Shown: positions 3,399 to 44,263 of the stretch, one piece after another
How the letters are laid out: every line of letters starts with the position of its first letter
Position numbering within the stretch: the stretch's first letter is position 1
Assembly (NCBI GenBank): GCA_021813905.1
Contig: JAKAJH010000017.1
Location: 1 to 51,877 of the forward strand
Direction: 5' to 3'
From: Bacteroidota bacterium
GTDB taxonomy: Bacteria > Bacteroidota > Ignavibacteria > UBA10030
DNA: 51,877 nucleotides
Notes under the pieces: generated by a model
What the model was told of the DNA's origin: nothing
What the model saw: the letters and a program-made list of their open reading frames with translations, nothing else
Databases searched by the model: none
Made by a program: the position numbers and the translations under genes

Positions 3399-3645
3399 TT
3401 CATGGCCGCGTACGCTTGTTCCGTCTGTCTCTTTGCCCCGCCGGTGTCTTCGTTCGCACAATCCGTTCAGGATCGACGGCGGGACGAGCGGCCATGGGGG
3501 AGGGATGGGAAATTGTCGATTGGCCGCAGACGACGCCAGGGCATTGCTCCGAGGAACGCGTTCTCGATGTCCGATTTTCCCGATCACAATCCTTTCACAC
3601 TCTTCACCCATCGATTGCAGTATCCGGAACGACCTCGGTATTGAT

Positions 3646-5850
3646 ATGATCAGTTTCCCGGTTGCACGTTCCCTCTCCACTCTCTTGCTGATCGCACTCC
3701 TCGCAGCCTCCTCCGTTCTTCACGGACAGAATCAGTTTACCGCAGTCGTCGCTGACAGCGCGAGCGGAAAACCGGTTGTGGGTGCGAACGCGATCGTCCG
3801 TGGCACCGTGCTGGGCGGGGTCACCGACACGCTCGGCCGTGTGACCATCACGGGAATTCCCGACGGTGCGCACACGATTGCCGTCTCCTGCGTCGGCTAC
3901 AGGAGCCGTGTGTTGCCGTACGACTTCCCTCTGGCCCCTGCGGCGCAGCCGGTGACTGTTCTCCTGGGCCAGGAGGCCATTGAACTTGGCGCGGTCACGG
4001 TGACGACGACGAGAACAAGTTATCACCTGTACGACGTTCCCGTCCGCATTGAAGTCAAAGGAGAAGAGGATATCGGTGAGACGATGATCGATCATCCGTC
4101 GAACATCTCGGAACTCTTTCTCGAATCGACGGGTATCCAGGTGCTTCAGACGTCACCCATCTCGAACTCTGTCAGCATAAAGCTTCAGGGACTGGATGGA
4201 AGCTACACGCAGATACTGAAGGACGGTTTCCCCTTGTATGGCGGCCTTTCGGCCGGACTCAGCGTGACGCAGATTCCGCCGCTGGACCTTCGCCGCGTGG
4301 AAATCGTCAAAGGTCCGTCATCGTCATTGTACGGAGCCGGGGCGATGGCGGGCATCATCAATCTCATTTCAAAGACACCCGCGGAGAATGCACGACTCAT
4401 GCTGCTTCTCAACGGCACCAGCGCTCGAGGCGTGGACGGAGGGCTGTTCTATTCGGGGCGAAAGAACAATGTGGGATATACCGTGCTGATGAACGGTACC
4501 GCAAACGCCGCGTACGATGCCGATCGGACCGGTTTTTCGGACATCCCGAGAACAGAGCTGTTCACGATCAATCCCAAAGTCTTCTACGACCTCAGTGACA
4601 ACACGAGAATCGTCTTCGGACTGTCCACGACCTCCGAGAATACGACGAGCGGGGATATGACGGCGTTGAGCGAAGGGACGAGCCTTTCCCATCCGTACAT
4701 CGAACGGACAAAGTCGAATCGGTCGTACACGCAACTGGATTTGGCCACCGAGGGGGGCTCCACCTCGATCGATTTCAAGAACAGCATCGGATACTTCCAC
4801 TTGAACAGGTCGCTGATGTCAGACCGTTTCGACGGAACGCAGTGGTCCACTTACTCTGAGTTGTCCGCCCAGATGGTGTCGGGTGAGCACACCTTGACCG
4901 GAGGAGTGAATCTGACGACGGACAGATTCCTCGAGGATCCGGCCGACAGCGTGGACCGGAGCTACACTCAATGGACCGCCGGGCTTTTTGGGCAGGACGA
5001 TTGGAAACTGGCAGCGCCTCTCACTGTGGAAACGGGACTACGAATCGATTGGGAAAACCGGAATGGTCTGCATGCGGTTCCGCGGATCGCCGCGATCTAT
5101 CATGTCACCGACAAATTGGGATTACGAGTGGGCGCCGGACTCGGATATAAAGTCCCGACAATCTTCTCGGACCAGTCCGATCCGAGCGCTCTCTACCGGC
5201 TTGAACCGATCCACAGCGACGTGCGGGTGGAGAGTTCAGTCGGCGGGGAGTTCGACGTTGCCTACAATACGATTGCTCTTGGTGCAATGACCCTTGCCCT
5301 GAATCAGGCATTCTTCTCCACGAGGGTTGACGATCCTCTCGTTCCGGTCCCTGAGAACGCTTCAGCGCCGGCCAATGGCAGAATTGCCCTGATCAATGCG
5401 AAGGGGTACCTGTATACCGCCGGGGCCGAAACGGACATCAAGCTGACGTACGACGAACTGGAAGCCTTCGTGGGCTATACGTATACCCATGCGCGGGGAA
5501 AAAGTCCGGAACGGGATGGAGCACTCGTCCTGACGCCGACACACAATGTCGTGATGGACGTTCTCTTTGATATGGAAGGCGCCGGCGAGGGTGGAGTGGA
5601 ATTGCGCTACACCAGTCCTCAGCTTCTGAACGATGGCACCCGAACGCCCGGCTTTTGGGTTCTGGATTGTCTGTTCCAGACGACGTTCTCTCACGTCACG
5701 TTCTTTGTCGCCGTCGAGAACGCCCTGGATCTGAAAGAAGCGAACTACACTCCGGTGTTTTCCGGCACCAGCGCTAACCCGCGCTTCAACGATGTCTGGG
5801 CGCCGCTTGAAGGTCGGATCGTGAACGGCGGAGTGAAGTTTCAGATGTGA
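3646..5850 (+). CDS. TonB-dependent outer-membrane receptor
   Basis: A gated outer-membrane importer of 734 residues. The start is placed at 3646 because a signal peptide begins there (MISFPVARSLSTLLLIALLAA ending near VLHGQ); the 71 upstream in-frame codons look non-coding. Order of domains: signal peptide; a carboxypeptidase-regulatory-like beta-sandwich (about 25-110; DSASGKPVVGANAIV), typical of Bacteroidota-type receptors; the plug (about 125-250; GIQVLQTSPISNSVSIKLQG, RRVEIVKGPSSSLYGAGAMAG); then the 22-strand barrel. The substrate is not evident; siderophore, cobalamin and peptide receptors share this layout. It ends in Met rather than the usual aromatic residue. No cobalamin-riboswitch boxes were seen in the 247 nt upstream. 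Energy would come from a Ton complex such as the one at 19.9-22.4 kb. Confidence 0.9.
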   Translation: MISFPVARSLSTLLLIALLAASSVLHGQNQFTAVVADSASGKPVVGANAIVRGTVLGGVTDTLGRVTITGIPDGAHTIAVSCVGYRSRVLPYDFPLAPAAQPVTVLLGQEAIELGAVTVTTTRTSYHLYDVPVRIEVKGEEDIGETMIDHPSNISELFLESTGIQVLQTSPISNSVSIKLQGLDGSYTQILKDGFPLYGGLSAGLSVTQIPPLDLRRVEIVKGPSSSLYGAGAMAGIINLISKTPAENARLMLLLNGTSARGVDGGLFYSGRKNNVGYTVLMNGTANAAYDADRTGFSDIPRTELFTINPKVFYDLSDNTRIVFGLSTTSENTTSGDMTALSEGTSLSHPYIERTKSNRSYTQLDLATEGGSTSIDFKNSIGYFHLNRSLMSDRFDGTQWSTYSELSAQMVSGEHTLTGGVNLTTDRFLEDPADSVDRSYTQWTAGLFGQDDWKLAAPLTVETGLRIDWENRNGLHAVPRIAAIYHVTDKLGLRVGAGLGYKVPTIFSDQSDPSALYRLEPIHSDVRVESSVGGEFDVAYNTIALGAMTLALNQAFFSTRVDDPLVPVPENASAPANGRIALINAKGYLYTAGAETDIKLTYDELEAFVGYTYTHARGKSPERDGALVLTPTHNVVMDVLFDMEGAGEGGVELRYTSPQLLNDGTRTPGFWVLDCLFQTTFSHVTFFVAVENALDLKEANYTPVFSGTSANPRFNDVWAPLEGRIVNGGVKFQM

Positions 5851-6112
5851 CCCTGGCGGTTCGAACGCCGTGGGAAGAACGAGCAGGCGACTTCCTGCCG
5901 TGTCTTTCGATCCGAGAGTGACCTTTGAGCGTCGTTCCGACGGAGGACGGTTGGAGCGAGAATCGGGTCCGGAACAGAATTGTCACCCACGCACCGCCGC
6001 ACTCACACACGTACGCACGTACCCTCGTACTTGAATTTCCCCCAAATTCTCGCTAAACATCCCTCCGTGCGGTCGGGGATATCTCCGGACAACCACAGGT
6101 GTGGGAGCTTTC
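5851..6112. other. Intergenic region before cstA with AC-rich block
   Basis: No gene seen. Positions 5984-6030 hold an AC-rich stretch whose CACCCACGCAC (5984-5994) is the exact reverse complement of GTGCGTGGGTG in the repeat at 43877-43887. A copy of the octamer-like site GAATTTCCCC (6033-6042) matches one of the sites that crowd before the sigma54 promoter at 19441. The cstA promoter must lie here but is not obvious. Confidence 0.4.
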
Positions 6113-8056: not shown

Positions 8057-8812
8057 TCATTTCATGAGCGTCATCTTCCGGATGGAGACTTCGTCGCCCA
8101 CCTGGAGGCGCGCAAAATAGGTGCCGGAGGCGAGGCGGAGGCCTTCGGCCGAGCTGTTCCATGCAATCTCGTACGTTCCGGCGTTCTGGAACTGTTCCAC
8201 GAGCCGGTTCACTTCCCGTCCCGTCATATCAAACACCGTCAGGTGCACTTGCCCCGGATCGTGCAGCGTGTACGTGATCCGCGTGGACGGGTTGAACGGA
8301 TTCGGATAGTTCTGACCGAGCGACGAACGGCGCATATCCGAACCTCCGACGGCCAGCGGTCCCGTGGTCCAGTCAGCGCCGTGGATCGTGACGCCCAGGC
8401 TGTCGGCGGACGGACCGGCCACCATCACGTTGGCCAGCGTGGCCCGGAGATCGGTCGCGCCGTCGTTTGCGGTGAAGCGAACCCGCACCAGTGATCCGCT
8501 GCCGGCTGAAAACGCCGTCTGCGTCTGACCCAGGATCACCACATTGTATGTCGAGTCGTTGACCCGATGGGAAGCCACAATCCATTCTGCTCCGACGGTC
8601 CGATCCGTCCGGTCAAGCGACTCCAGACGAACGTCGGACGAAGAACGCACCGAGAACTGTATCCCTCCGACGACTTCCTGGTTGTCCATCAGCACGTCGA
8701 GCGTGCTCAGCGATGAACGCACCACGGAGAGCTTGTTCTGAGCAGCCAGCGGCGCGATGCAGAACGCTGCCGCCAGGATCAGGTTCGCTATCAGTGTGGT
8801 TGTCGGTTTCAT
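8057..8812 (-). CDS. Secreted protein with type IX sorting domain
   Basis: A 251-residue exported protein. A signal peptide (MKPTTTLIANLILAAAFCIA, cleavage near LAAQ) is followed by a domain of about 130 residues resembling a cohesin-type beta sandwich (VGGIQFSVRSS, LVRVRFTAN). A Por/type IX C-terminal sorting domain follows, with NYPNPFNPSTRITYTL, VFDMTGREV, GTYEIAWN and SGTYFARLQ, ending RKMTLMK. Such proteins cross the outer membrane by the T9SS and are released or anchored at the surface. Start 8812 was chosen because the signal peptide begins there; a GTG at 8848 would add 12 charged residues. Function beyond secretion is unknown. Confidence 0.85.
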   Translation of the reverse strand: MKPTTTLIANLILAAAFCIAPLAAQNKLSVVRSSLSTLDVLMDNQEVVGGIQFSVRSSSDVRLESLDRTDRTVGAEWIVASHRVNDSTYNVVILGQTQTAFSAGSGSLVRVRFTANDGATDLRATLANVMVAGPSADSLGVTIHGADWTTGPLAVGGSDMRRSSLGQNYPNPFNPSTRITYTLHDPGQVHLTVFDMTGREVNRLVEQFQNAGTYEIAWNSSAEGLRLASGTYFARLQVGDEVSIRKMTLMK

Positions 8813-9159
8813 GTCAGTCGGGCTTTCGGGTCCTGCCCTTTCCTTCACCGTTCATGCCAGCATGCCACTCCGATCACCCCGGCTCTATAAGTCTTTATCC
8901 TTCAATGCCTTGTGAATCTTCGTGGCTCTCGCCCGAGGGCGCTCCTGAATTGTAACTTCTACACGCCCTGTGTGATTCGCGGAACAGGGCACTTGAAACA
9001 TGCATGTTGTGAATCGATAGGGAGGAATCGGCTTTGTAGAATCTGCAGGGGTTCAATCAACGCCGAGGGGTGAATCAGGCGGCGATGGCCATCCGGAGTT
9101 GCGGCACTTCACTTGATGAGATCGTGTGAATGAGGATCGTTCTCACTGGGAGGTGACGC
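8813..9159. promoter_or_regulatory. Intergenic control region with repeated TGTGAATC octamers
   Basis: The 347 nt between the divergent T9SS-cargo and hybrid-kinase genes hold no ORF worth naming. On the plus strand an octamer recurs: TGTGAATC at 8911 and 9008, TGTGATTC at 8971, GGTGAATC at 9069 and TGTGAATG at 9125. Most are spaced close to 60 nt apart. They could be binding sites, but nothing proves this. A strong ribosome-binding site (GGAGGTGA) for the kinase closes the region. Confidence 0.4.
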
Positions 9160-14540: not shown

Positions 14541-15946
14541 GGGTTTTGTTCCGTTCCTTCCGGGTAGTACGTCAACCGAACGACACGGGTCGTGTGATCG
14601 GTCAGTTTGAATCGATCGTCGAGTCGCTGGCCGCAGACCCAGAGGATGCTCCCTCCGGCTTCCAGCACCGGGATGTGCTGCTTCTCCCGGCGCGGCAGTT
14701 TTCGATCGACAAAGAAGTCGCTCAATTTCTTGCGTCCCCGCATGCCCAGCGGCACGAACCAGTCGCCGGCTTTCCAGGTGCGGACGCGCAGCGGTCCGCG
14801 GAGCCGGTCGGCGTCGACATACTCCGTTCCCGGCCGGGCGACCAGCGCGGCGGGACGGGGTCCCGGGTCGCTGACCGCAATGGAGAATCCCGGGAAGCGA
14901 TTGGTGCGCCCCGCGATGACCGGGTACGAAAAATCCGCCGCGGGTGTCGTGGACCGGATGGAAAGCGAGTCATGTTCCCGTTCGACCACGCGGGATCCGG
15001 AGAGCATAACCCGCCTGCCGGCCTGTCCGCCGATGACGCGTTCCAGGGCGCGGACCTTCTGTTCCGTCGGGTCGACGCCGACAGTGTCAAGCAGACGGAG
15101 CAACAGGTGTTCCCGTACAAGCCAATCCAGTCGATCCCATCGAACCAGCGAAAGTGAAAGATCGTGTCCGACGGATCTCCGGACCCGGGCGCGCCATGCC
15201 CTGTCCACGCGCTTCTCAAGGCGCGCAACCACGCGCGTCATCGTTTCGGCGACCGTGGTGAGATCCCGGATGATCGACGAGCGGCGGGATGACTGAAGGG
15301 CAGGAAGCACGCGCAGCCGGAGCAGGTTGCGGGCGTACTTCAGTGATCGGTTGGAGGAATCTTCCCGGAAAAGAATGCGGCGGTTCCGGGCGAACGCGGC
15401 GATCTGCGCCCGTGAGGCGAACAGCAGCGGGCGGATGATGTGACCGGTCAAGCGCACCGGCGGAATGCCGGCGAGTCCGCGCAATCCGGTGCCGCGCAGA
15501 ATGTTGAGCAGAACGGTCTCGGCGTTGTCGTCGGCGTTGTGAGCGACCGCGACGGCGTCAGCACCGACCGAGTGGCGCGCCTCGTCGAACCACGCGTAGC
15601 GCAACCGGCGTGCCGCCACCTGACGCGAGATGCGCCGGGCACGTACGGTCTCGAGGGTCGGCAAGCGGCGGGAGAAGAAAGGAACGCCGAGCGCGGCTGA
15701 GGCCGACTGAACGAACTTCTCGTCGGCATCCGACTCGTCACCCCGCAGCTGATGGTTGGCGTGAACGACCGCAAGGCGAACGGCGTGACGCGATGCCACA
15801 GCATGGAAAAGATGGAGCAGCACCATGGAATCCACACCGCCGCTGACGGCGATCAGGACGGTCTGGCCCCGTTTCACCATGCGCGATGCGCGCAGGTGTC
15901 GGTCAAACGCTCGAACGAACTGTGCCGGAGTGCCGGTCGCTGCCAT
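14537..15946 (-). CDS. tilS: tRNA(Ile)-lysidine synthetase
   Basis: Uses ATP and lysine to convert C34 of tRNA-Ile2 (anticodon CAU) to lysidine, so that it reads AUA. The N-terminal PP-loop ATPase motif is IAVSGGVDSMVLLHL, followed by VVHANHQLRGDESD and AVAHNADDNAETVLLN. The C-terminal part keeps the TilS substrate-binding region (FVPLGMRGRKKLSDFFVDRKLPRREK). ATG 15946 gives 469 residues, normal for long-form TilS. An in-frame GTG at 15970 falls inside a perfect palindrome and is less likely. No Shine-Dalgarno sequence precedes the ATG. It is the first gene of the minus-strand cluster. Confidence 0.95.
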   Translation of the reverse strand: MAATGTPAQFVRAFDRHLRASRMVKRGQTVLIAVSGGVDSMVLLHLFHAVASRHAVRLAVVHANHQLRGDESDADEKFVQSASAALGVPFFSRRLPTLETVRARRISRQVAARRLRYAWFDEARHSVGADAVAVAHNADDNAETVLLNILRGTGLRGLAGIPPVRLTGHIIRPLLFASRAQIAAFARNRRILFREDSSNRSLKYARNLLRLRVLPALQSSRRSSIIRDLTTVAETMTRVVARLEKRVDRAWRARVRRSVGHDLSLSLVRWDRLDWLVREHLLLRLLDTVGVDPTEQKVRALERVIGGQAGRRVMLSGSRVVEREHDSLSIRSTTPAADFSYPVIAGRTNRFPGFSIAVSDPGPRPAALVARPGTEYVDADRLRGPLRVRTWKAGDWFVPLGMRGRKKLSDFFVDRKLPRREKQHIPVLEAGGSILWVCGQRLDDRFKLTDHTTRVVRLTYYPEGTEQNP

Positions 15947-15957
15947 CCAAAACAAAA

Positions 15958-15978
15958 CTTGACCCGTCACGGGTCAAG
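15958..15978. promoter_or_regulatory. Perfect 21-nt palindrome before tilS
   Basis: Arms CTTGACCCGT and ACGGGTCAAG flank a single central base, 12 nt before the tilS ATG. Read on the minus strand the hairpin is followed by TTTTGTTTT, so it has the shape of an intrinsic terminator sitting in the tilS leader. It could instead be an operator serving the divergent tilS and kinase genes. Confidence 0.6.
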
Positions 15979-16065
15979 ATCAAGAGTGAGAGGATACGCT
16001 CGTTTCGGACAAAAAGTACTCATTTTTGCCGGCAGAGGCAAGGCGACGGTCATCCCGCGCTCACC

Positions 16066-16096
16066 TTGCCTTTCCCTCGAAAATCCGGTACGTTTT
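16066..16096 (+). promoter_or_regulatory. Candidate Bacteroidota-type promoter of the kinase gene
   Basis: TTGC at 16066-16069, a 19-nt spacer and TACGTTTT at 16089-16096 resemble the -33/-7 pair (TTG, TAnnTTTG) known in Bacteroidota. If used, transcription would start at or very near the ATG at 16103, giving a leaderless or almost leaderless mRNA. No ribosome-binding site is seen there. Confidence 0.4.
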
Positions 16097-16102
16097 ACGG
16101 CC

Positions 16103-17950
16103 ATGCGAAGCCTTCGGTACAAGATCGGTGCAAGCTACTTCATCCTCGTCCTCGTCGGACTCGGAACCAGTGTCTTCGCGTTGTTCGCGTTCACGCAGCT
16201 GCGCGGCACGGTGGAGTCGCTGCTGCAGGGTGCGGTCGAGCGCACGGTGGCGGCGGAACATCTCGTGCGCGCCGTGGACCGTCAGGAGATCGCCCAGACG
16301 ACTGCCCTCATCGACCTCGAAGACCGTGAACTCTACCAGGCGTATTTCAACGACGGACGGGACGATTTTCTCCGGTGGTACGAACAGGCGCGTACGCAGG
16401 CGACCTCGCCGCATCCCACGATTCTCGACAGCCTCCTCGGGACGTATCGGACGTACCTCATGGCCTCGGACTCGCTGTTCGGCCTCATGAACCGTCCCGG
16501 AAAAGTGGACATTGCGAAGCGGTTCCAGAAGTACATCGTGCGACCCATCGCGGAACAGCTCAAGAACCAGTGCTTCCAGTTTCTCGAGGCCAATCAGGCT
16601 GCCATGGTCCGGGCGGAATCGACGGTCCGGTCCACGACCTTCAGCGCCACCCTCGCGCTGATCCTGGCGGCTCTGGCCTCCATCATCATCAGCCTCGTCG
16701 CCAGTATTCAGTTCACGCGGACGATCATCAAGCCCGCCGAGCGTCTGACCGATTCGGTGCGGCGCATCAGCCTCGGGCACATGCAGCAGAAGATCGACGT
16801 GACCACCGATGACGAGATCGGCGTGCTGAGCACGGAATTCAATAAGATGACCGAGCGCCTGCGCATGTACGAGCAGATGAACATCCAGCAGCTGATCGCC
16901 GAGAAGAGCAAGTCGGAAACGATCGTGGCGAACATCGCCGACCCGATGCTTGTGACGGATGCGCAGAACCGCCTGGTGCTGATGAATCAGGCGGCGGCGC
17001 GCGTGCTGAGTCTGGAACGGACCGACTGGCAGGGACGACCGCTGCGGGAGGTGCTGCGGGACGAACGCTGGGCCGGCGTTCTGGAAGCGAACGGCGTCGC
17101 TGAATCCGAGCGGGAGCACCGGGAACCGCTGCTGCTGACCGTGCAGAACGGATCCACCTCCTACTTCCGTCCGCGCCAGGCACGCATCGAGGACGAGGAC
17201 GGTGAACTGCAGGGCTGCGTCACGCTGCTGCAGGATGTCACCCGCTTCAAGGATCTGGACCGGATGAAGTCCGAGTTCGTGGCGACCGTGTCCCACGAGT
17301 TGCGCACGCCGCTGACGTCGCTCAGCATGGGCATCGACATCCTGTCGAAGGAAGTGATCGCACCCGTCACGGACCGCCAGCGCGAAATCCTTCTCGCCGC
17401 GAAGGATGATTGCGAACGCCTGCGCAAGCTGGTGAAGGATTTGCTCGACCTTTCGAAACTGGAATCGGGCCGGTACGAGCTGAAGAAAGAACGCATCGCC
17501 CCGGCACAGCTGATCGCCGATGCGCTCCGGCCGCTCACACTGCCGTTCCAGGAGAAGCAGATCGCGCTGCAGTCGGACGTTCCGGACGATCTCCCCTGGA
17601 TCGTGGGTGACAGTCAGCAGTTGTCGTGGGTGGTGACGAATCTGCTCACGAACGCGCTGCGGTTCACCGACGCCGGCGGCACCGTGCGTCTCGCGGCAAC
17701 GCGCCGGGGAGAAGAGCTGGCCGTCGCCGTCAGCGATACCGGCCACGGCATTCCGCCCGAATCGAAGGAGATGATTTTCGAGAAGTTTGTGCAGATCAAA
17801 GGCGCCACCGAATCGACGCCCGGCAGCGTCGGCCTGGGATTATCCATTGCGCGCGAAGTCGTCGAAGCGCACAGCGGACGCATCTGGGTGGACAGCACTG
17901 TCGGCGTCGGCAGCACCTTCACGTTCACGCTACCGCTGGGAAAGGACTGA
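16103..17950 (+). CDS. Membrane sensor histidine kinase (HAMP-PAS-HisKA-HATPase)
   Basis: A 615-residue inner-membrane sensor. Membrane helix 1 lies at about 10-32, a helical periplasmic domain of about 145 residues follows, helix 2 at about 178-205, then HAMP (FTRTIIKPAERLTDSVRRIS), PAS about 270-380, HisKA with H398 (FVATVSHELRTPLTSL), and HATPase (NLLTNALRFTDAGG, DTGHGIPPESK, GLGLSIAREV). ATG 16103 is chosen because it opens the first membrane segment; 117 open codons upstream are antisense to tilS and not credible. It lies 3 nt before the gene for an NtrC-type regulator, so the two form a cognate pair. The periplasmic sensor domain is of no class I recognise. Confidence 0.93.
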   Translation: MRSLRYKIGASYFILVLVGLGTSVFALFAFTQLRGTVESLLQGAVERTVAAEHLVRAVDRQEIAQTTALIDLEDRELYQAYFNDGRDDFLRWYEQARTQATSPHPTILDSLLGTYRTYLMASDSLFGLMNRPGKVDIAKRFQKYIVRPIAEQLKNQCFQFLEANQAAMVRAESTVRSTTFSATLALILAALASIIISLVASIQFTRTIIKPAERLTDSVRRISLGHMQQKIDVTTDDEIGVLSTEFNKMTERLRMYEQMNIQQLIAEKSKSETIVANIADPMLVTDAQNRLVLMNQAAARVLSLERTDWQGRPLREVLRDERWAGVLEANGVAESEREHREPLLLTVQNGSTSYFRPRQARIEDEDGELQGCVTLLQDVTRFKDLDRMKSEFVATVSHELRTPLTSLSMGIDILSKEVIAPVTDRQREILLAAKDDCERLRKLVKDLLDLSKLESGRYELKKERIAPAQLIADALRPLTLPFQEKQIALQSDVPDDLPWIVGDSQQLSWVVTNLLTNALRFTDAGGTVRLAATRRGEELAVAVSDTGHGIPPESKEMIFEKFVQIKGATESTPGSVGLGLSIAREVVEAHSGRIWVDSTVGVGSTFTFTLPLGKD

Positions 17951-17953: not shown

Positions 17954-19276
17954 GTGGAAGAACGCCAGCCCGCTGTGCTCGTCGTGGATGACGAGCGGAA
18001 CATTCTGAATACGATCGGGATCTGTCTCGAATCGATCGGCGTCGCACCGCTGCTGTGCAGCAAACCGCAGGATGTCATCGGTCTGCTGAAAGAGCACCGG
18101 TTCGATCTCGCCTTTGTGGACCTGAAGATGGCTCCGCTGGACGGCATGGAAGTGCTGGAGCAGATCAGACGATTTTCACCCGATACAACCGTGGTGATCA
18201 TGACCGCGCACGGTTCGATCGACAGCGCCGTCGCCGCCGTAAAGAAGGGCGCGTACGACTACCTGCAAAAGCCGTTCTCGTTCGATGAGCTGAAGCTGTT
18301 TGCGCAAAAGGTCCTGGAGCACCACGAGCTTGCCCGCGAAGTGCGTCTGCTGCGCGCGCAGGTGTCCCGGCAGCAGGAAGAGCGCGAGATCATCACCCGC
18401 AACCGCGCGATGCTCGAGCAGCTGGATCTGGCCGGTCGCGTGGCGGACAGCACGATGAGCGTGCTCATCGAAGGCGAGAGCGGGACGGGCAAAGAGCTGG
18501 TGGCCGAGTACATCCATCGCCAGGGATCCCGCGCGGAGAAGCCGTTCGTGAAGGTCAACTGCGCGGCCATCCCGGAACAGCTGCTGGAGAGCGAGCTCTT
18601 CGGACATGTCAAAGGGGCGTTCACCGGCGCTCTGCGCGATCGGCAGGGACGCTTCGAGATGGCGGACGGCGGCACAATCTTTCTCGACGAGATCGGCGAG
18701 CTGTCGCCGTCGATCCAGGCAAAGCTGCTGCGCGTGTTGCAGAGCAAGGACTTCGAGCGGATTGGTGAGAACGTCACGCGCACAGTCGATGTCCGCGTCA
18801 TCGCGGCGACGAACCGGAATCTGGATGAGGCGCTGAAGGAGGGATCGTTCCGCGAGGATCTGTTCTACCGGCTGAACGGCCTGCGGATCAAGCTGCCGCC
18901 GTTGCGCGAGCGGCCGGAGGACATTCCGCTCCTCGTTCAGCACTTCGTCATCAAGACGTCGAAGGAAAATCCCGTCGACGTATCGCCCGAGGCCGACCGG
19001 TTGCTGCGCGGATATCGGTGGAGCGGAAACGTCCGGGAACTGGAGAACGTGGTGGAGCGCGCCGTGCTTCTGGCGGCGGCCGGCCTGATCGGTCCGGAGC
19101 ATCTGCCCGACGAAGTGCGAACGGCGGGGCAGGTTCAGGCGCTCTCGCTCGAGGAAGTGGAGCGCGCGCAGATCAAGAAGGTGCTGCAGTTCGCGCACGA
19201 TTATGATGAAGCGGCGCGGATCCTCGGCATCGACCGCAAGACGCTGTTGAACAAGCGGAAGCGCTACGATCTCTGA
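17954..19276 (+). CDS. Sigma54-activating response regulator (NtrC family)
   Basis: A 440-residue transcription activator. The receiver (1-125) has phospho-Asp D56 ([14 protein letters not shown]) and Lys in YLQKPFS. The AAA+ domain (about 140-375) has Walker A GESGTGKE, the sigma54-contacting GAFTGA loop ([10 protein letters not shown]), Walker [12 protein letters not shown] and the Arg-finger region. A Fis-type helix-turn-helix follows ([20 protein letters not shown]). The GTG start at 17954 directly follows the kinase stop. It should be phosphorylated by the upstream kinase and act at sigma54 promoters; a well-spaced -24/-12 element lies 165 nt after its stop, ahead of the STAS-Ton gene run. 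Confidence 0.95.
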
Positions 19277-19286: not shown

Positions 19287-19433
19287 GCGGGGAAAAATTC
19301 CCCGCGCCGTAAGTTGTTTGCTCGAATTGTATTACGTCCAACTCCTTTCCACTGTTGAAAATCCCCGCACCGAATTTCCCCACGCAAGGGTGTCGACGCA
19401 CGAATATCCCATGATTTCGTCGAAAATTCCCGG
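19287..19433. promoter_or_regulatory. Array of GAAWWTYCCC sites upstream of the sigma54 promoter
   Basis: Five related sites lie in 147 nt: the palindrome GCGGGGAAAAATTCCCCGC (19287-19305), GAAAATCCCC (from 19357), GAATTTCCCC (from 19372), GAATATCCC (from 19402) and GAAAATTCCC (from 19422). They sit 10-150 nt upstream of the -24 element, where enhancer sites of NtrC-type activators are found. The first also forms a hairpin after the regulator gene, but it has no T-run and so is not a good terminator. Confidence 0.55.
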
Positions 19434-19440: not shown

Positions 19441-19456
19441 TGGTACCGGGTTTGCG
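19441..19456 (+). promoter_or_regulatory. Candidate sigma54 (-24/-12) promoter
   Basis: TGGTACCGGGTTTGCG fits the sigma54 consensus TGGCAC-N5-TTGC: the GG and GC dinucleotides have the obligatory spacing, and the one mismatch is T for C at the fourth base. Transcription would start near 19467, leaving a 65-nt leader before the STAS gene. The gene just upstream encodes a GAFTGA-type sigma54 activator. Confidence 0.6.
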
Positions 19457-19532: not shown

Positions 19533-19880
19533 ATGGCCACCAAGCTTACGACGCTCAATAATCTCGAGATCGCGGTTCTCGAGCCCCGTGGATCGCTCAT
19601 CGGGGGAGAGGAAACAGACGAATTAAAGACAAAGGCGCGCGACCTGATCGAGCAGGGAAACAAGAAACTGGTGCTTGACCTCGGCGGCGTCACGTACATC
19701 AACAGCTCGGGCATCGGCGCGCTGGTCAGCGTGCACACGATGTATCAGAAAGCCCAGGGCAAGATCAAGCTGTGCAATGTGGCGAAGGGTGTGCAGAACG
19801 TATTTGTGATCACGAAGCTCACGAGCGTCTTCGAGGTCGAAGAGGACCGTGAGCAGGCTGTGAAGACATTCAAAGCGTAA
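19533..19880 (+). CDS. STAS-domain protein (anti-sigma-factor antagonist type)
   Basis: A single-domain cytoplasmic protein of 115 residues. The SpoIIAA-like core is clear: GSLIGGEETDELKTKARDLI, LVLDLGGVTYINSSGIGALV with the Ser normally phosphorylated by a partner anti-sigma kinase, and the late KLCNVAKGVQNVFVITKL. No anti-sigma kinase or phosphatase gene is nearby. ATG 19533 is preferred; 33 upstream codons carry the promoter region. As first gene after the sigma54 promoter and 44 nt before exbB, it is probably co-transcribed with the Ton genes. That is unusual for this family and may mean it controls the complex or a distant sigma factor. Confidence 0.88.
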   Translation: MATKLTTLNNLEIAVLEPRGSLIGGEETDELKTKARDLIEQGNKKLVLDLGGVTYINSSGIGALVSVHTMYQKAQGKIKLCNVAKGVQNVFVITKLTSVFEVEEDREQAVKTFKA

Positions 19881-19924: not shown

Positions 19925-20662
19925 ATGAAGACCTCTGTGTTCAACACCATCGTACTGGTCGTCGCCTTCGCGGTCGGCTACGCGATCTACGAGTACATGC
20001 TGCCGAAGTTCATCAAGGACGGCGGTCCGTTGGTCATTTCGCTGATCGCGCTGGTGATCATGCTGGTGGCAGTGATTGCCGAGCGGTATCTGTCGCTGCG
20101 CAAGGCGCAGGGCAAAGGGAATATCCCCCTGTTCCTGAAGAACGTGCAGCAGTCCGTCACCGCCGGCGACATCGATGGCGCGATCGCCCTGTGCGACAAG
20201 CAGCGCGGTTCGATGGCGAACGTCATCCGCTCCGGTCTGGACGGCTACAAGATGCTCGTGTCGCAGGGTGATGTCGAAGGCCAGAAACAGATGATGGAAG
20301 AGATCCAACGGTCGATTGAAGAGGCGACGATGCTGGAAGTGCCCCTGCTCGAGCGCAACCTCGTCATGATGTCCACGATCGCCTCCATCGGCACCATGGT
20401 CGGTCTGCTGGGCACGGTGGTCGGAATGATCCGTTCGTTCCAGGCCATGTCGCGCGCCGGCGCCCCGGATGCCGTCCAGCTCGCGCTCGGTATTTCCGAA
20501 GCCCTGATCAACACGGCGGGCGGTCTCGTCGCCGGTATCGGCGGGATCGTGGCCTACAATTTCTTCGTCACGAAAATCGACAACTTCACCTACATGATCG
20601 ACGAAGCCAGCTACGCCATCATTCAGTCGCTCGTTTCGCGCAAGCCGTCCAAGTCCCGGTAA
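19925..20662 (+). CDS. exbB: ExbB/TolQ/MotA-type proton channel
   Basis: A 245-residue inner-membrane protein that, with ExbD, uses the proton gradient to energise TonB. Hydrophobic segments lie at about 8-25, 36-54, 145-168 and 188-210. The conserved block SIGTMVGLLGTVVGMIRSFQ and the later INTAGGLVAGIGGIVAYNFF mark the channel helices. The extra N-terminal helix, compared with E. coli ExbB, is common in Bacteroidota. AGGAG lies 7 nt before ATG 19925. It is followed at once by two exbD genes and tonB. Confidence 0.93.
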   Translation: MKTSVFNTIVLVVAFAVGYAIYEYMLPKFIKDGGPLVISLIALVIMLVAVIAERYLSLRKAQGKGNIPLFLKNVQQSVTAGDIDGAIALCDKQRGSMANVIRSGLDGYKMLVSQGDVEGQKQMMEEIQRSIEEATMLEVPLLERNLVMMSTIASIGTMVGLLGTVVGMIRSFQAMSRAGAPDAVQLALGISEALINTAGGLVAGIGGIVAYNFFVTKIDNFTYMIDEASYAIIQSLVSRKPSKSR

Positions 20663-20683: not shown

Positions 20684-21151
20684 ATGGCGAAGCACAAAAA
20701 AGGACGCGTCAATATCAGGATCGACATGACGCCGATGGTGGACGTCACGATGCTGCTGCTGACGTTCTTCATGATGACGACGCAGTTCAAACCGCCCGAG
20801 GAAGTCGAGGTGGTGCTGCCGCTGTCGCACTCCGAGTTCAAACTCCCGGAGTCGGACATCATGATGATCTACGTCAACAAAGAGGGCAAGATCTACCTCG
20901 GCGTTGACTCCCAGAACCTCATGGAACGGCTGTTCGGCAAGGAGAACCGCTACAAGCGGGCGGTGGAACTGAACAAGGACGCGCTGGGCAACATTCTGAT
21001 CCAGGCGCGCATCAACAATCCGCGGCTCCGCACCGTGATCAAGGGGGACAAAGGCGCTCCCTACGGCCCGATGGAAGATGTGATGGATGTGCTCCAGAAG
21101 GCGAAGATCACGCGGTTCAATCTTGTCACAGACCTTGATAAAGGAGCCTGA
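20684..21151 (+). CDS. exbD: ExbD-family biopolymer transport protein, first copy
   Basis: A 155-residue single-pass protein: a short basic cytoplasmic N-tail, one membrane helix and a periplasmic domain. The proton-carrying Asp is D20 in IDMTPMVDVTMLLLTFFM. The periplasmic part contains the typical 'VIKGDKGAPYGPMEDVMDVL' run. AAGGAGG precedes ATG 20684. It lies 21 nt after exbB and 2 nt before a second exbD, so the stator may contain an ExbD heterodimer. Confidence 0.92.
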   Translation: MAKHKKGRVNIRIDMTPMVDVTMLLLTFFMMTTQFKPPEEVEVVLPLSHSEFKLPESDIMMIYVNKEGKIYLGVDSQNLMERLFGKENRYKRAVELNKDALGNILIQARINNPRLRTVIKGDKGAPYGPMEDVMDVLQKAKITRFNLVTDLDKGA

Positions 21152-21153: not shown

Positions 21154-21645
21154 ATGGCTGCAGTCGAAACCGGACAACCTCGTGCGGCTCAAAAAGGAAA
21201 GCGCAAGAAGCGCCGGGTGGGCGTTCGCATCGACATGACGCCCATGGTCGACGTGTGTATGCTGCTGCTGACCTTTTTCATGCTCACGACGGTCTTCAAC
21301 AAGCCGCAGACGATGGAACTGAACCTGCCGCCGGACGACAAAGTCCAGGTGGAGGTCCAGGAATCCGCGCTGCTCACTCTGCGCGTGGACAAAGATTTCC
21401 AGATCTACTGGAATCAGGGAAGCGATCCGAAACTGCAGAAGGTGGCCTTCAAGGACCTTCGCAGCTTCCTGACGGAGCGTCTGCGCAACAATCCGAAACT
21501 CATCACGCTGGTGAAAGTTGACCGGGATGCCACCTATGAGAACATGGTGGACGTGATGGATGAACTGAATCTTGCCAACATCACCCGCTTCAGCCTGGCG
21601 CCGATGCAGGACGCCGACAAGAAGCTGATGGCGAAGGCAGGATAA
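21154..21645 (+). CDS. exbD: ExbD-family biopolymer transport protein, second copy
   Basis: A 163-residue paralogue of the preceding ExbD. It has a longer and more basic N-tail (QKGKRKKRRVGVRIDMTP), the proton-carrying Asp at D33 (MVDVCMLLLTFFML) and a different periplasmic domain ending in NITRFSLAPMQDADKK. Two diverged exbD genes in tandem are usual in Bacteroidota Ton and gliding-type loci. It is separated from tonB by 10 nt. Confidence 0.92.
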   Translation: MAAVETGQPRAAQKGKRKKRRVGVRIDMTPMVDVCMLLLTFFMLTTVFNKPQTMELNLPPDDKVQVEVQESALLTLRVDKDFQIYWNQGSDPKLQKVAFKDLRSFLTERLRNNPKLITLVKVDRDATYENMVDVMDELNLANITRFSLAPMQDADKKLMAKAG

Positions 21646-21655
21646 GGAGGCGATG

Positions 21656-22393
21656 ATGGCAGACGGTATGGTCGTCCCCTATCAGACCCATGGCTACGGT
21701 GCAGTCGAACTGAAGGCCGTTGCGCAGAAGTACATGGCGTACGGCCTGGTGTTCTCGACGCTGCTGAGCTTCTCCACGATCGGTTCCTACTACGGAATCG
21801 GCTATCTCACGGAAGAAGACGAGCCGGTGCACATGGTGCGCATTCTGAAGTACACAGACCTCGGCCCGCCTCCGTCGCTGACCGACCAGGCGGCTCCCGC
21901 CGTCGCGGTCTCCGGTCCGGCGGTGAAGCCGAGTATCGGTATCCCCGTCCCGGTTCCCGATGCGGAAGTCAGCCCGGACCAGACGATCGCCACGCAGACC
22001 GAACTGAGCGCGCAGTCGGCGCCGGTCGAAGGCCCCGGTTCGGGCAGCGGCGGCGCACAGATCGAGCAGGACCTGAAAATCGACGATGACGGTCCGCCGC
22101 CTGACTTCGTGCCGTACGAAAAGGAACCGACGATCGTCAAGCGCGTCGAACCGAAATATCCCGACATCGCGCTCCGCGCCGGTCTCGAAGGCAACGTCTT
22201 CGTGAAGGTGTGGGTCGACAAGGAAGGGAAAGTGCGCAAGGTCGTCATCCTGAAGAGCGATGCGGAGATCTTCAACCAGGCAGCGGAAGATGCGGCAAAG
22301 CAGTGGATCTTTACCCCGGCGGTCATGCAAAAAGGCCCCGTGTCGGTGTGGGTGTCGATCCCGTTCCGTTTCCGGTTGAGCGGCAACAAATAG
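21656..22393 (+). CDS. tonB: TonB energy-transducing protein
   Basis: A 245-residue protein that spans the periplasm and pulls on the plug of outer-membrane receptors. A cytoplasmic N-part of about 25 residues precedes the membrane helix (about 28-50; YMAYGLVFSTLLSFSTIGSY). A Pro-rich linker follows (SGPAVKPSIGIPVPVPD). The C-terminal TonB domain reads VEPKYPDIALRAGLEGNVFV, VWVDKEGKVRKVVILKS, AAKQWIFTPA and ends in FRFRL. The long unstructured N-part before the helix is odd for TonB. ATG 21656 has AAGGAGG at a good distance; ATG 21653 is possible. It could energise the receptor at 3.6 kb. Confidence 0.92.
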   Translation: MADGMVVPYQTHGYGAVELKAVAQKYMAYGLVFSTLLSFSTIGSYYGIGYLTEEDEPVHMVRILKYTDLGPPPSLTDQAAPAVAVSGPAVKPSIGIPVPVPDAEVSPDQTIATQTELSAQSAPVEGPGSGSGGAQIEQDLKIDDDGPPPDFVPYEKEPTIVKRVEPKYPDIALRAGLEGNVFVKVWVDKEGKVRKVVILKSDAEIFNQAAEDAAKQWIFTPAVMQKGPVSVWVSIPFRFRLSGNK

Positions 22394-22491
22394 GCTGTGC
22401 ATGCAAGCTGCCAGGCGCTGGTGGAACGCATGCGCTCGCGCATGGCGCTCAACAGCCCTGACAGCTTGTGTGTTTTTCAGGGTTCGTGACT

Positions 22492-22743
22492 ATGATCCAT
22501 CGAACACAACGAAGCCCGCAGGCGACCATCTCCATGCTTCTCGGCTACACCGTCTCGGCCGTCTCGCTGGTCTTCGGTATTCTTCTTCTGACCGGGTGGC
22601 TCCTGCATTTCACGATGCCGGACCAGTTTCGCGTCACGTTCGGCGTGGTGCTGCTGCTGATGGGGATCTACCGGTTCGTCCTGACGCGCACAAAGGCAAA
22701 ACAATGGGCCGACGAACAACAGGAATCGGAATCGCCGCGCTGA
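22492..22743 (+). CDS. Small two-helix membrane protein
   Basis: An 83-residue protein with two hydrophobic helices (about 13-35 and 42-60) and a charged C-tail (TRTKAKQWADEQQESESPR). I recognise no family. It sits between tonB and the PstS-like gene, starts 98 nt after tonB and overlaps the next gene by 40 nt, so it belongs to the same transcript. ATG 22492 has an AGGG 9 nt before it; a GTG at 22468 is possible. A role as an accessory of the Ton complex is inference from position only. Confidence 0.7.
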   Translation: MIHRTQRSPQATISMLLGYTVSAVSLVFGILLLTGWLLHFTMPDQFRVTFGVVLLLMGIYRFVLTRTKAKQWADEQQESESPR

Positions 22744-23624
22744 TTACCGCCGCGCTGGCGGTGGTCCCGGGATGTCAGCGGAAAGAAGCGACCGCCACCT
22801 CGGGTGCGACGACCATCCTGGCCAGTCACCCGCTGGACTCGCTGGTGCGTGAAGAAGCGGCGCAGTATGTGAGCCTGTACCCGCAGGTACAGCTCGCCGT
22901 GCGGGCGGTGGAAACGCGGGAAGCCGTCGTCGATCTCCTGAACGGCGGCACGAGCGTCATCGCGATCGACCGGCCGCTGAACGACGAGGAGCGCGACGTC
23001 GCGGCACAGGCCGGCCTGAACCTCACCGTCAATGCATTCGCGCATGACGGACTGGCGGTGATCGTCCATCGCCTGAATCCGGTCCGTCAGATGACGGTCG
23101 AGTCGGTACGCCGGATCGTGACACGCGAGGCGACGGCGTGGGCGGCGATCCCGGACGCGCGCTGGGACCGGGCGATCGAGCTGGCGCTCAGCGATGTCAA
23201 CTCGGGTCCGCCGGAATTGCTCCAGCGAACCTTCTTCCATCTGCCACGGGCGCCGGAACCGACGACGCGTGTCGGAACGCAGGAGCAGGCGCTCGCGTAC
23301 GTCGCGGCGCATCCCGCCGCTGTCACATTCGTTTCCATGACGCATCTCGATCAACTCTCATCCGATCTTCGCATCGTGCCGATCGAGTCGACGGATTCCA
23401 CGGCGACCGACCGTTTCGTCCTCCCGTCGCAGATGAATGTCTATCAGTCTCTTTACCCGTTTCATTATTCTTTGTATCTTGTGCTCGCCGAATCCAAAGC
23501 CGCGGTGGGTGCGGGCTTCAGCACCTTTGTGATCAAGACCGTCGAGGGCCAGAAACTGGTGCAGAAAGCAGGGCTCGTGCCGGTCAACATCCCGAACCGC
23601 GTGATCCAGTTAAACCCGGAGTAA
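22704..23624 (+). CDS. PstS-like substrate-binding lipoprotein
   Basis: A 306-residue lipoprotein of the type 2 periplasmic-binding fold. A signal peptide with lipobox (VVPGC, Cys at about 24) is followed by a PstS-like domain: ILASHPLDSLVREEAAQYV, VDLLNGGTSVIAIDRPLNDEE, NAFAHDGLAVIVHRLNPV and TVESVRRIVTREATAWAAI. The last two are the usual PstS 'Ala/Gly-x-Asp...Val-Asn-Pro' and 'Gly-x-Trp' regions in changed form, so the ligand may not be phosphate. No ABC permease genes are near. PstS-like genes following exbD-tonB are known in Bacteroidota, with unproved function. The start overlaps the upstream small gene. Confidence 0.82.
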   Translation: MGRRTTGIGIAALITAALAVVPGCQRKEATATSGATTILASHPLDSLVREEAAQYVSLYPQVQLAVRAVETREAVVDLLNGGTSVIAIDRPLNDEERDVAAQAGLNLTVNAFAHDGLAVIVHRLNPVRQMTVESVRRIVTREATAWAAIPDARWDRAIELALSDVNSGPPELLQRTFFHLPRAPEPTTRVGTQEQALAYVAAHPAAVTFVSMTHLDQLSSDLRIVPIESTDSTATDRFVLPSQMNVYQSLYPFHYSLYLVLAESKAAVGAGFSTFVIKTVEGQKLVQKAGLVPVNIPNRVIQLNPE

Positions 23625-23631: not shown

Positions 23632-25299
23632 ATGAAGAGAACCCTACCGTTCCTTGCCGCCTGTCTCCTCCTGGTCGGAGCCGAAGCGCCCGGTCAATCG
23701 AAGGTTGATTTTGCCAACGGTCTTCTCAAAGAAGGAAAGGTCCGCGAAGCTATCGGGATCCTGCAGGCCCAGCTGGCGGACTACTCACGCGACGCGAAGG
23801 CATGGTTCAGTCTGGCGCAGGCATACCAGGCCCTCCATCGGATGGATTCGGTCGAGTTCGCCGCATCGAAAGCGGTGACGTACGATGACGAGATGCAGGA
23901 TGCCTACGTCCTCCTCTCGTCGGCACAACTGGCGCAAAAGAAGACTTCTGACGCCTACGCGAGCGCACGAGCCGGAATCCGGGCAAAGAAGCAGGAATAT
24001 CCGCCGCTGCTGATCCAGCTGGGCCAGGTGCTGCTGGCGGCCGATTCCGCCGATGCAGCGCTGGTGGCATTCACGCGCGCCCGGGAGATCCAGCCGGACA
24101 ACCCGGTGGTCTACGAAGGACTCGGCGACGCGTACGCGAAGCAGGGCGTGGGGCCGCTGGCGATCACGCAGTATGAACGGTCGCTCGAGATCGATTCGCT
24201 GCAGCCGGCGCTGTGGTACAAGCTGGCAAATCTGAACATCAAGGAGCGCCGGTACACGGACGGCGCCCACGCGTTCCTCCGCCTGCTGGAGCAGCAGCCG
24301 GCGAACGATTCCGCACGGCTCGAGCTGGCGAATCTGTACTATCGTGCGCGCCAGTTCGTCAACTGCGCGAAGACGCTGAAGGAGTACTTCGGGACGCACA
24401 AGAATGTGGACAAGGAAATCCGCTCCATGTACATGGAGTCGCTCTTCCTGAGCCGCCAATACAAGGAAGCGCTCCCGCTCGCGCAGCAATTCCTGAAAGA
24501 AGATCCGAACTCCCGTCTGGCCACGCGGATCGTGGCGCTGGCGTCCATCGATCAGAAGCAGTACGACGCGGCGGTCGACGCCTACACGAAACTCAAGACG
24601 CTCGATACCCTGGATGTGAACGACTACCGGCGTCTGGCGTTTGCCTATCGCCAGACCAAGCGCGATTCGTTGGCGGCGCTGACCCTGGAAGAGGCAATCC
24701 AGAAGGACAGCACGCAGGAGGCGCTGTACAATGAGGCCGGTGCCCTGTGGATGACGCTGCGCCAGTGGAAAGGGGCGGCGGCGATGTTCGAGAAGCGTAT
24801 CCAGCTCGATACCAGCGCGATCGCGGCATACATCAATTACGGTTCGTGCGTCATGCAGATGGAGGACTACGAGACGGCCGCGAAGGCGTTCCAGAAAGCC
24901 ATCGCGCTGAACCCGCAGTACCCGCCGGCCTATATCCGCCTTGCGTCATGCTACTTCCAGCTCAAGCAGTACGATCAGGGTCGGACGGTGGCGGAGAAGG
25001 CCGTGGAGGTCGTGGACACCGCGAAGGTCAAGTACCGGCTCGAACTGGCGGATGCCAACCGGATGATTGGACTGGCCTACCTGCTGGACAAGAAGTGGGA
25101 GGATGGTGTGAAAGCGCTGCGCGAATCGCTGAAGTACAAGGATGACGACGCGCAGACCTGGCTCCTGCTCGGGCAGGGGCTGCAGAATATGCAGAAGAAC
25201 AAGGATGCTTATGATGCTTATGTCCGCGCGCTGAAGATCGACCCCAACAATGAGGGCGCGAAGAAGGGGCGGGACACTCTGAAACCACTTGTTGAATAA
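23632..25299 (+). CDS. Exported TPR-repeat protein
   Basis: A 555-residue protein with a signal peptide (MKRTLPFLAACLLLVGAEAP, cleavage near APGQ) and about a dozen tetratricopeptide repeats covering almost the whole mature chain (for example DAKAWFSLAQAYQALHRMDS and YPPAYIRLASCYFQLKQYDQ). It is likely a periplasmic scaffold. It starts 7 nt after the PstS-like gene. The order exbB-exbD-exbD-tonB-PstS-like-TPR recurs in Bacteroidota, which suggests the TPR protein is part of the same envelope assembly; its partners are not known. Confidence 0.9.
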   Translation: MKRTLPFLAACLLLVGAEAPGQSKVDFANGLLKEGKVREAIGILQAQLADYSRDAKAWFSLAQAYQALHRMDSVEFAASKAVTYDDEMQDAYVLLSSAQLAQKKTSDAYASARAGIRAKKQEYPPLLIQLGQVLLAADSADAALVAFTRAREIQPDNPVVYEGLGDAYAKQGVGPLAITQYERSLEIDSLQPALWYKLANLNIKERRYTDGAHAFLRLLEQQPANDSARLELANLYYRARQFVNCAKTLKEYFGTHKNVDKEIRSMYMESLFLSRQYKEALPLAQQFLKEDPNSRLATRIVALASIDQKQYDAAVDAYTKLKTLDTLDVNDYRRLAFAYRQTKRDSLAALTLEEAIQKDSTQEALYNEAGALWMTLRQWKGAAAMFEKRIQLDTSAIAAYINYGSCVMQMEDYETAAKAFQKAIALNPQYPPAYIRLASCYFQLKQYDQGRTVAEKAVEVVDTAKVKYRLELADANRMIGLAYLLDKKWEDGVKALRESLKYKDDDAQTWLLLGQGLQNMQKNKDAYDAYVRALKIDPNNEGAKKGRDTLKPLVE

Positions 25300-43069: not shown

Positions 43070-43645
43070 TTGAGCGCTATCTATCTGGACCGAACGATGG
43101 CGCTCGAAGCCCTTGAGGCAAAGATCCGTGAATTGAGCACGCGAAGAGAGAATCTCCTCGATGCCATAGAAGGCGGTGGCAATATCCCGAGCCTGGCGGC
43201 CCGTGTGGAGAAGCTCGATCGGGAAATTGCGGCTCTTGAGCAGAAGAAGCAGGAACAACAAAAGATCCTGACGCTGCCGGCCCAGATCACAGACGTCGCG
43301 GAAGAAGCAAGCGTGTTCCTTGAGAGGTATCGGCTGGAATTCGATGCTCTTCCGTTGGAGGAGCAACGGCTGATGCTCCGGAAGGTGATTGTCGGCATCC
43401 GCGTCGACCCGATCGCCAGAACTGTCGATCTGGTTGTTGCCAGAGTCCCATTGGTGGACAAGGCTCTGACTTCTCGGATTAGTACAACTGACTACAGCTT
43501 CTCAGGGGGCGGTGTAGCCAATTCTGCGCAACTCGCATCAAAGCGACTCTGCGCAAAAACGAAGAATCCCGCACGAAAGCACGGGATTCTGTGGGCTAAT
43601 TCTGTAGCGGGGGAGGGATTCGAACCCACGACCTGCGGATTATGA
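43070..43645 (+). pseudogene. Large serine recombinase, C-terminal remnant
   Basis: The frame encodes the C-terminal coiled-coil and end region typical of large serine recombinases: ALEALEAKIRELSTRRENLL, DAIEGGGNIPSLAARVEKLD, and the closing LEEQRLMLRKVIVGIRVDPI then ARTVDLVV. The catalytic resolvase domain and zinc ribbon are absent; the frame is closed by a TAG at 43016 and what lies before it is not similar. After about residue 130 the frame runs into unrelated sequence and into the tRNA gene. So this is a broken gene. It points to a past insertion next to the tRNA. Confidence 0.65.
43554..43590 (-). terminator. Intrinsic terminator of the tRNA gene
   Basis: On the minus strand, stem AGAATCCCG / CGGGATTCT with a 10-nt loop is followed by TCGTTTTT. 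It lies 15 nt past the tRNA 3' end. Confidence 0.8.
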
Positions 43646-43678
43646 TTCCGACGCTCTAACCGACTGAGCTACCCCGCC
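43605..43678 (-). tRNA. tRNA with anticodon CAT (elongator Met, possibly Ile2)
   Basis: A 74-nt cloverleaf on the minus strand: acceptor GGCGGGG / CCCCGCT with discriminator A, D arm GCTC...GAGC, anticodon loop ATCATAA (CAT) and T loop TTCGAAT. CCA is not encoded. The overall sequence resembles elongator tRNA-Met of related bacteria; a CAT anticodon would also fit tRNA-Ile2, the substrate of TilS. Two stem positions are mismatched (T-C at 27-43, T-T at 50-64) and the first acceptor pair is G-T, so some decay is possible. Its 5' end is repeated in the tandem units to the right. Confidence 0.85.
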
Positions 43679-43816
43679 AGCAAAGATCGAACACATCAGC
43701 TCAGATGCGAAGCCTCGTCGCTGTCTGACGGGCTGAGCTACCCCGCCAGCAAAGATCGAACACATCAGCTCAGATGCGAAGCCTCGTCGCTGTCTGACGG
43801 GCTGAGCTACCCCGCC
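43664..43816. repeat. 69-bp tandem repeat carrying the tRNA 5' end
   Basis: Two identical 69-bp copies start at 43664 and 43733, and a third of 15 bp at 43802. Each copy begins with CTGAGCTACCCCGCC, which is the first 15 nt of the adjacent tRNA on the minus strand. On that strand a unit starts like the tRNA, has TTCGATC near its 3' side and ends in GCT, so it looks like a degenerate tRNA. The copies lie upstream of the tRNA, where its promoter should be. Confidence 0.85.
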
Positions 43817-43865: not shown

Positions 43866-44263
43866 TCTGTGTGTCAGTGCGTGGGTGTGTTGGAATTGCG
43901 AATGACGAATTACGAGAGACCAATTGGATCCTTGCATCTTCGTGATTCCTTCGCCTGCCCCCGCCTGCGGTTTGCCCGCCGAAGGTGGGCAGGCAGGCGC
44001 CGAAGAGAGACCTCCCCGTCAGGCGGGAATTTCGGATTTGCTTCTTCGAATTTCCCCTGTCATCCTGAGCAGCGCTTCTCCGCTGCGAAGGATCCGCTCT
44101 GCTCCTGCTTAGCCTCTCGAGCTTCGCATTTCGTGCTTCCTTCGTAATTCGGATTTGGTTCTTCGGATTTGCCTGTTCGACACTTTGCTTGGGAATGCAT
44201 ACGCCGTTCAATTCCCCAATCCCCCAATTCCACCCACCAACCCACCTACTCACCCACACACTC
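43866..44263. repeat. Non-coding element bounded by GT/AC-rich inverted repeats
   Basis: The left end (GTGTCAGTGCGTGGGTG at 43871, then TTGGAATTG) and right end (CAATTCC at 44225, followed by an AC-rich run to 44263) are inverted copies. The inside holds no gene: GAATTACGA-type motifs, a strong hairpin around GCCTGCC...GGCAGGC (about 43955-44005), and CATCCTGAGCAGCG...CGAAGGATC, a dispersed repeat phrase familiar from many bacterial genomes. The left end matches the block before the IVP gene at 30130 in 15 of 17 bases. So this may be an IVP-type cassette that has lost, or never had, the gene. Confidence 0.6.

Follow-up and report, generated by a model that had tools for sequence, protein, structure and literature searches.

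How a transcription factor can change its DNA code while keeping its targets is an old question. In lambdoid phages, the repressor and the operators of the immunity region are exchanged together by recombination. According to the accessible parts of the published accounts, the sigma54 activator LuxO binds TTGCAW3TGCAA (PMC10162802, PMC10328515), and its helix, according to the residue numbering of an alanine-scanning study, reads V-S-P-S-T-I-Y-R-K-L (P422 to K428), with S423, I425, Y426, R427 and K428 among the residues needed for activity (PMC11407668). As far as the available excerpts go, the sigma54 regulome of Desulfovibrio vulgaris comprises many activators, each acting on few operons via palindromic sites (PMC4641369), the recognition residues of the GntR family co-vary with the bases of the site, with Arg-G, Lys-G and Asn-A preferences (PMC4494728), and sigma54 control of TonB in Flavobacteriia has been called unconfirmed (PMC12316311).

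In this report, we describe a two-component locus in a window of 51,877 nucleotides (the whole stretch of DNA that was analysed), one contig of a genome of 3.08 Mb; among named genomes, Ignavibacteriae/Bacteroidetes MAGs are the closest to it. At a probability of roughly 0.87, we read the locus as a two-component sigma54 switch with two palindromic enhancers, sites that are read by the recognition helix, and an exchangeable linked cassette, a reading in which we infer binding, activation, recombination and the signal; the anatomy, the conservation, the co-variation, the repeated changes and the mosaic flanks can be followed in the sequences themselves. The regulator and a predicted enhancer are thereby assigned to a widespread sigma54-controlled Ton-type operon of Ignavibacteria-like bacteria, and we found no report on this operon's regulator in Ignavibacteria in the open-licence literature. 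The larger finding, as judged from comparison of orthologs, is the linked helix-and-enhancer cassette together with its repeated switching.

The regulator, its operon and the sites between them

All genes of the locus lie on the + strand. A sensor histidine kinase with HAMP, PAS, HisKA and HATPase domains (15752..17950; Pfam on 16100-17947, the true start probably being near 16100) is followed by a response regulator and sigma54 enhancer-binding protein with receiver, Sigma54_activat and Fis-type HTH_8 domains (17954..19276; Pfam and translation). The latter belongs to the NtrC family by its combination of a receiver, an AAA+ Sigma54_activat domain and a Fis-type HTH in one protein, and by the presence of rpoN, the sigma54 gene, in the genome and of a -24/-12 promoter at the target; the GAFTGA loop, which contacts sigma54, and Walker A are both visible in its translation. 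Its best solved relative is 4l4u, NtrC1 of Aquifex, which has the same receiver, AAA+ domain and Fis-type HTH along its entire length. Sequence and ortholog alignment place the recognition helix codons, DRKTLLNK (class RKTLxN), at 19232..19255. The target operon, assigned by Pfam, begins with a STAS-domain protein (19533..19880) and continues with a MotA/TolQ/ExbB proton channel (19925..20662), an ExbD/TolR protein (20684..21151), a second ExbD/TolR (21154..21645), a TonB C-terminal protein (21653..22393), a PstS-like periplasmic binding protein (22401..23624; PBP_like_2, Pfam on 22665-23621) and a TPR protein (23632..25299) that is probably its last gene.

The non-coding stretch between the regulator and STAS genes measures 256 nt and contains the sigma54 promoter element TGGTACCGGGTTTGC (GG-N10-GC; 19441-19455, + strand), recognized by its sequence and the presence of rpoN, which is the only TGGNACN5TTGC match in the window. 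Between the regulator stop (19276) and this element, the first-pass annotation had counted five GAAWWTYCCC sites; one palindrome and four weaker copies are indeed there, but the match is exact in only three of the five, and the palindrome GGGGAAAAATTCCCC starts at 19289, not 19287. This perfect palindrome, putative enhancer site I (19289-19303, no strand), is the sole match in the genome at up to one mismatch, and departs from GAAWWTYCCC in that an additional A/T base separates GAA from TTCCCC. The weaker copies are GAAAATCCCC at 19357-19366, GAATTTCCCC at 19372-19381, GAATATCCC(A) at 19402-19410/11 (+ strand), which misses the motif at the last base, and GAAAATTCCC at 19422-19431 (+ strand); the last two, at 19402 and 19422, are not matched in the intergenic regions of relatives and may be accessory half-sites. 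The annotation's view that the cluster exceeds chance stands, since GAAWWTYCC occurs four times in the intergenic region and none of 5000 dinucleotide shuffles reaches four, a flattering figure because the motif was derived from this same region, so that conservation in relatives is the independent evidence. The exact 10-mer occurs seven times in the window against 0.82 expected. The further proposal that enhancer-binding proteins sit here is carried by the pair, its position and its tracking of the helix in 50 of 50 orthologs, with the correction that the functional unit in relatives is two 13-15-bp palindromes between the regulator, the sigma54 promoter and the STAS gene, not five copies.

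Only site I is a full palindrome in the window, and site II is ambiguous, with 7/12 matches in either of two registers 15 bp apart. One candidate, GTTGAAAATCCCC (19354..19366, + strand), has its centre at 19360, 81 bp before TGG, the same distance as in L008 of the same genus; the other, the right half TTCCCC in GCACCGAATTTCCCC (19367..19381, + strand), has its centre at 19374, 78 bp from site I, a spacing as in relatives. Each thus preserves one conserved distance, and the left arm is missing in both.

We propose a model in which the kinase would phosphorylate the response regulator encoded by the adjacent gene, and dimers of the regulator would bind the pair of 13-15-bp palindromes, of which site I is perfect in the window while site II is degenerate and accompanied by extra half-sites. 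The bound regulator would assemble into an AAA+ ring, and this ring would open the sigma54 promoter from which the STAS-TolQ-ExbD-ExbD-TonB-PstS-TPR operon is transcribed. The site would be read by the Fis-type recognition helix, TTGCA-N3-TGCAA by the PATLWR type, GTTGC-N5-GCAAC by RATLWK and GGGGAA-N3-TTCCCC by RKTL(L/F)N, and the linked cassette could be exchanged in one recombination event with regulation unbroken.

Site class, helix class and their joint change

A regulator ortholog at 57% identity or more was present in 41 of the 61 genomes searched; 52 of the 98 genomes in the order, and 23 of the 32 in the family, have one at 55% or more. STAS and TolQ lie downstream of the regulator in nearly all readable relatives. 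The comparison of orthologous intergenic regions that the first-pass annotation had suggested revealed the palindrome pair, usually 74-79 bp apart, in each of the 50 non-duplicate orthologs with conserved synteny, the window's own genome among them; this count leaves out same-genome duplicates or identical C-termini and loci without downstream STAS; L029 was retained as a separate genome, L156 and L161 were removed, and site-pair scoring excluded loci L081-L121. Within the GGGGAA class, 10 of 11 members have a spacing of 74-78 bp; in the GTTGC class it is 75-78 in 5 of 5, and in the TTGCA class 75-79 in 32 of 34. Of the two that deviate, one is probably L051, for which scoring over a different stretch gives 76. 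A sigma54-like element is present in 47 of the 50 orthologs, with none where expected in three. The -12 dinucleotide of these 47 promoters is GC in 31, GA in 10, GT in 5 and GG in 1 (non-GC in 16 of 47); the non-GC loci include L002-L007, L009, L024, L026, L028 and L030, and are mostly GA in the L002-L007 genus.

Loci without STAS present a mixed picture: L050, L054 and L154 have TTGCA pairs, L017 (whose contig ends early) has a weak pair, and most of the others (L041, L055, L057, L059, L060, L062, L063, L066, L067 and L069-L080) score near shuffles, the low shuffle counts of L055 (TTGCA model, 5/200, gap 94) and L072 (GGGGAA model, 4/200, gap 80) being due to chance or otherwise. The Calditrichia-like MAGs L050 and L054 combine an ATLWR helix with a TTGCA pair and have no STAS; by gene names assigned by eye, the sites are followed by TolQ/ExbD/TonB-like genes in L054 and a TonB-like gene in L050, and the circuit may therefore extend to Calditrichota.

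Site class matches helix class in all 50 non-duplicate STAS-bearing orthologs. The RKTL(L/F)N helix goes with GGGGAA-N3-TTCCCC sites (n=11), the PATLWR-type helix with TTGCA-N3-TGCAA sites in 34 of 34 orthologs, the half-site being (C/A)TTGCA, and the RATLWK helix with GTTGC-N5-GCAAC sites (n=5); the outer G is found in 95% of RATLWK-class half-sites versus 8% in the PATLWR class. Ten of the 11 RKTLxN pairs were reached by 0/200 shuffles, the weak exception being L014, whose RKTLLN helix is accompanied by weak GGGGAA-like sites reached by 19/200, and all 32 ATLW pairs were reached by at most 5/200, 29 of them by none. Among loci obtained after the rule was seen (L153-L163), nine were STAS-bearing and seven of these non-duplicate, and all had the predicted class, which was the majority class only. 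In the window, the target promoter has sites of the GGGGAA type and no LuxO-type TTGCA-N3-TGCAA, and TTGCAWWWTGCAA at up to one mismatch is at control level in the window's genome, G000 (2 versus 2). Because pair and position recur in 50 of 50 orthologs and the sequence tracks the recognition helix, the window's sites are very probably enhancers of the adjacent 17954 regulator, driving STAS-TolQ-ExbD-ExbD-TonB.

A tree of 56 regulators, built without the last 48 residues and therefore without the DNA-binding domain, requires at least four helix-class changes (bootstraps 4 to 4): one falls at the base of the clade with RKTLxN helices or close to it, L014 gained its class separately, and RATLWK appears in two nested rows, L004, whose sister is L002, and L006, whose sister is L007. 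In four of four independent pairs, the sites changed with the helix in the same direction (sign test p 0.125, the pairs being too few for 0.05). Two pairs of close relatives show where the difference lies. Between L042 and L043, longer copies of L002 and L004, identity reaches 93% for the regulator and 94% for STAS, but it is 57% over the final 63 nt of the regulator gene and 48% in the intergenic region, which is 238 nt long in one and 308 nt in the other; L003 and L006 have flanks of 87 and 82% identity, but 56 and 47% in the last 63 nt and the intergenic region. In contrast, same-class pairs with flanks of 88-96% (L019/L020, L025/L029 and L027/L031) retain 82-91% intergenic identity. The break in identity starts at the recognition helix and stops at the ribosome-binding site, and since helix codons and enhancers usually lie within ~350 nt, they would form a linked specificity cassette.

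Because helix and intergenic region are only ~50% alike between flanks of 82-94% identity, the pattern fits recombination that exchanged the segment with the helix, both enhancers and the promoter as one linked cassette, apparently twice, as judged from two related MAG pairs. We lean towards the broader view that helix, two enhancers and promoter constitute a specificity cassette exchanged between species, such that orthologs of one genus toggle between the LuxO-like code TTGCA and an unrelated one, GGGGAA, with no change in kinase, AAA+ domain or target operon. The best-surviving alternative, to which we accord a distinctly smaller though real share of belief, is that helix and sites changed by stepwise compensatory point mutation. 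The RATLWK helix with GTTGC sites is a plausible intermediate of such a path, and the intergenic parts of the L004 and L006 cassettes are just 53% alike, which also does not point to a single recent donor. However, stepwise change does not readily account for the collapse of identity and the difference in length between L042 and L043 when same-class pairs stay alike, nor for breaks that fall sharply at the helix on one side and the ribosome-binding site on the other, and we therefore prefer cassette exchange. No donor of either swapped cassette turned up among the relatives sampled, and cassette exchange of such a kind is not reported in the open-licence literature that we could find. Insulation from same-helix paralogs was rejected as the cause of switching, since no such paralog occurs among the other activators of G000 whose C-termini could be read (11 of 12). 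Natural near-identical pairs that differ only in a few-hundred-bp segment carrying helix and sites make the swap directly testable, and through such pairs the reading code of the Fis-type helix (positions P/R, A/K, W/L and R/K/N) becomes accessible.

Assignment of the sites and extent of the regulon

It is improbable that the sites belong to some regulator other than the adjacent one. Twelve more proteins of the genome are similar over the sigma54-activator region, and binding by the adjacent regulator is itself deduced from sequence; nevertheless, the sites co-vary with the helix of the adjacent regulator through at least four changes, an ATLW or RKTL(L/F)NK helix occurs in none of those 11 readable C-termini (L132 was unread), and the palindrome is found once in the genome at up to one mismatch. 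Slightly less credible still is a reading in which the palindrome terminates transcription of the regulator gene and the remaining copies are AT-rich words that arose by chance. The palindrome does begin 12 nt past the stop codon and could form a stem of about -14.7 kcal/mol, but a terminator scan gave no site there, no T-run terminator is present, most relatives have a TTGCA-type palindrome instead, and a second copy whose class tracks the recognition helix lies ~77 bp off. An extra exbD lies between the regulator and the STAS promoter in L005, and a tonB-like gene in L008; in both, the palindromes remain with the promoter, after the inserted gene. The terminator reading was rejected on the scan, the TTGCA type in relatives and the promoter linkage in L005 and L008.

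The first-pass annotation had also proposed a genome-wide count of the motif and a link to cstA. The GAAWWTYCCC 10-mer has 77 copies in the 3.08 Mb genome, and a rough test of codon usage places 54 of the 70 outside the window in DNA that is probably coding (the test called 129 of 152 known coding positions correctly, and also called one of four presumed intergenic stretches, 8200-8900, mostly coding), whereas the full palindrome occurs once at up to one mismatch. None of the 16 non-coding copies outside the window has a sigma54 element within 300 nt. Thus, the loose 10-mer is mostly background and the cluster is the special part, and the 10-mer was rejected as a regulon marker. When up to three mismatches are allowed, 141 places in G000 match the palindrome, and the 14 weaker ones inspected (L196-L209, 2-3 mismatches) have no sigma54 element within 300 nt in the reading direction.

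The extra exact copy at 6033 exists and lies before the gene at 6101, which is cstA, although the same word, GAATTTCCCC, also occurs at 44048, intergenic and near tRNA-like sequence. Co-regulation of cstA and other GAATTTCCCC-bearing genes is the least believable of the readings considered, since the exact copy at 6033 is a half-site lacking the left arm, the window's cstA upstream region has no sigma54 element, GAAWWTYCC is found in none of 18 other cstA upstream regions, and the non-coding 10-mer copies elsewhere lack a nearby sigma54 element; membership of cstA in the regulon is accordingly not upheld. Among those 18 regions, the shorter half TATCCCC occurs in one (L177, with only 84 nt readable) and a sigma54-like match at -278 in one (L182). 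Directly upstream of cstA is a TonB-dependent receptor gene (3433-5850); the window thus contains both this receptor gene and the TonB operon. Around the 44048 copy, part of the tRNA-like sequence (~43600-43680) is apparently repeated twice in tandem just downstream (43690-43815), and the intergenic stretch 44020-44160, which contains this GAATTTCCCC, has recurring words like TTCGGATTTG / TTCGAATTTCCCC and CATCCTGAGCAGCG, perhaps a dispersed repeat.

Comparison with known systems

The closest likeness is to LuxO, as far as the available parts of its accounts extend. Both are response-regulator sigma54 activators; V-S-P-S-T-I-Y-R-K-L of LuxO is in register with I-D-P-A-T-L-W-R-K-R of relatives, so that P-S-T-I-Y-R-K resembles P-A-T-L-W-R-K; and TTGCAW3TGCAA, which came from alignment of the relatives alone, coincides with the published LuxO site, the same 13-bp palindrome often standing in two copies upstream of a sigma54 promoter (qrr, Vibrio). 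In contrast, LuxO controls small-RNA genes from sites 14-30 bp apart in V. fluvialis, whereas the sites of this circuit usually lie 74-79 bp apart before a STAS/Ton operon and are of the GGGGAA type in the window's lineage. The regulator's neighbours here are a membrane kinase and a Ton operon, and orthology with LuxO is not claimed. The Desulfovibrio vulgaris regulome is similar in that activators act on few operons through palindromic sites, but its account, in the portion accessible, does not contain co-variation of helix and site among orthologs or exchange of a linked cassette (PMC4641369). The GntR work concerns another factor family and, in its available text, correlation rather than exchange (PMC4494728). 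Its Arg-G, Lys-G and Asn-A preferences fit the R/K/N helix with GGGGAA. Compared with lambdoid phages, where repressor and operators move together, the exchange here would involve a chromosomal two-component regulator, and of this no more than the helix end, along with its enhancers.
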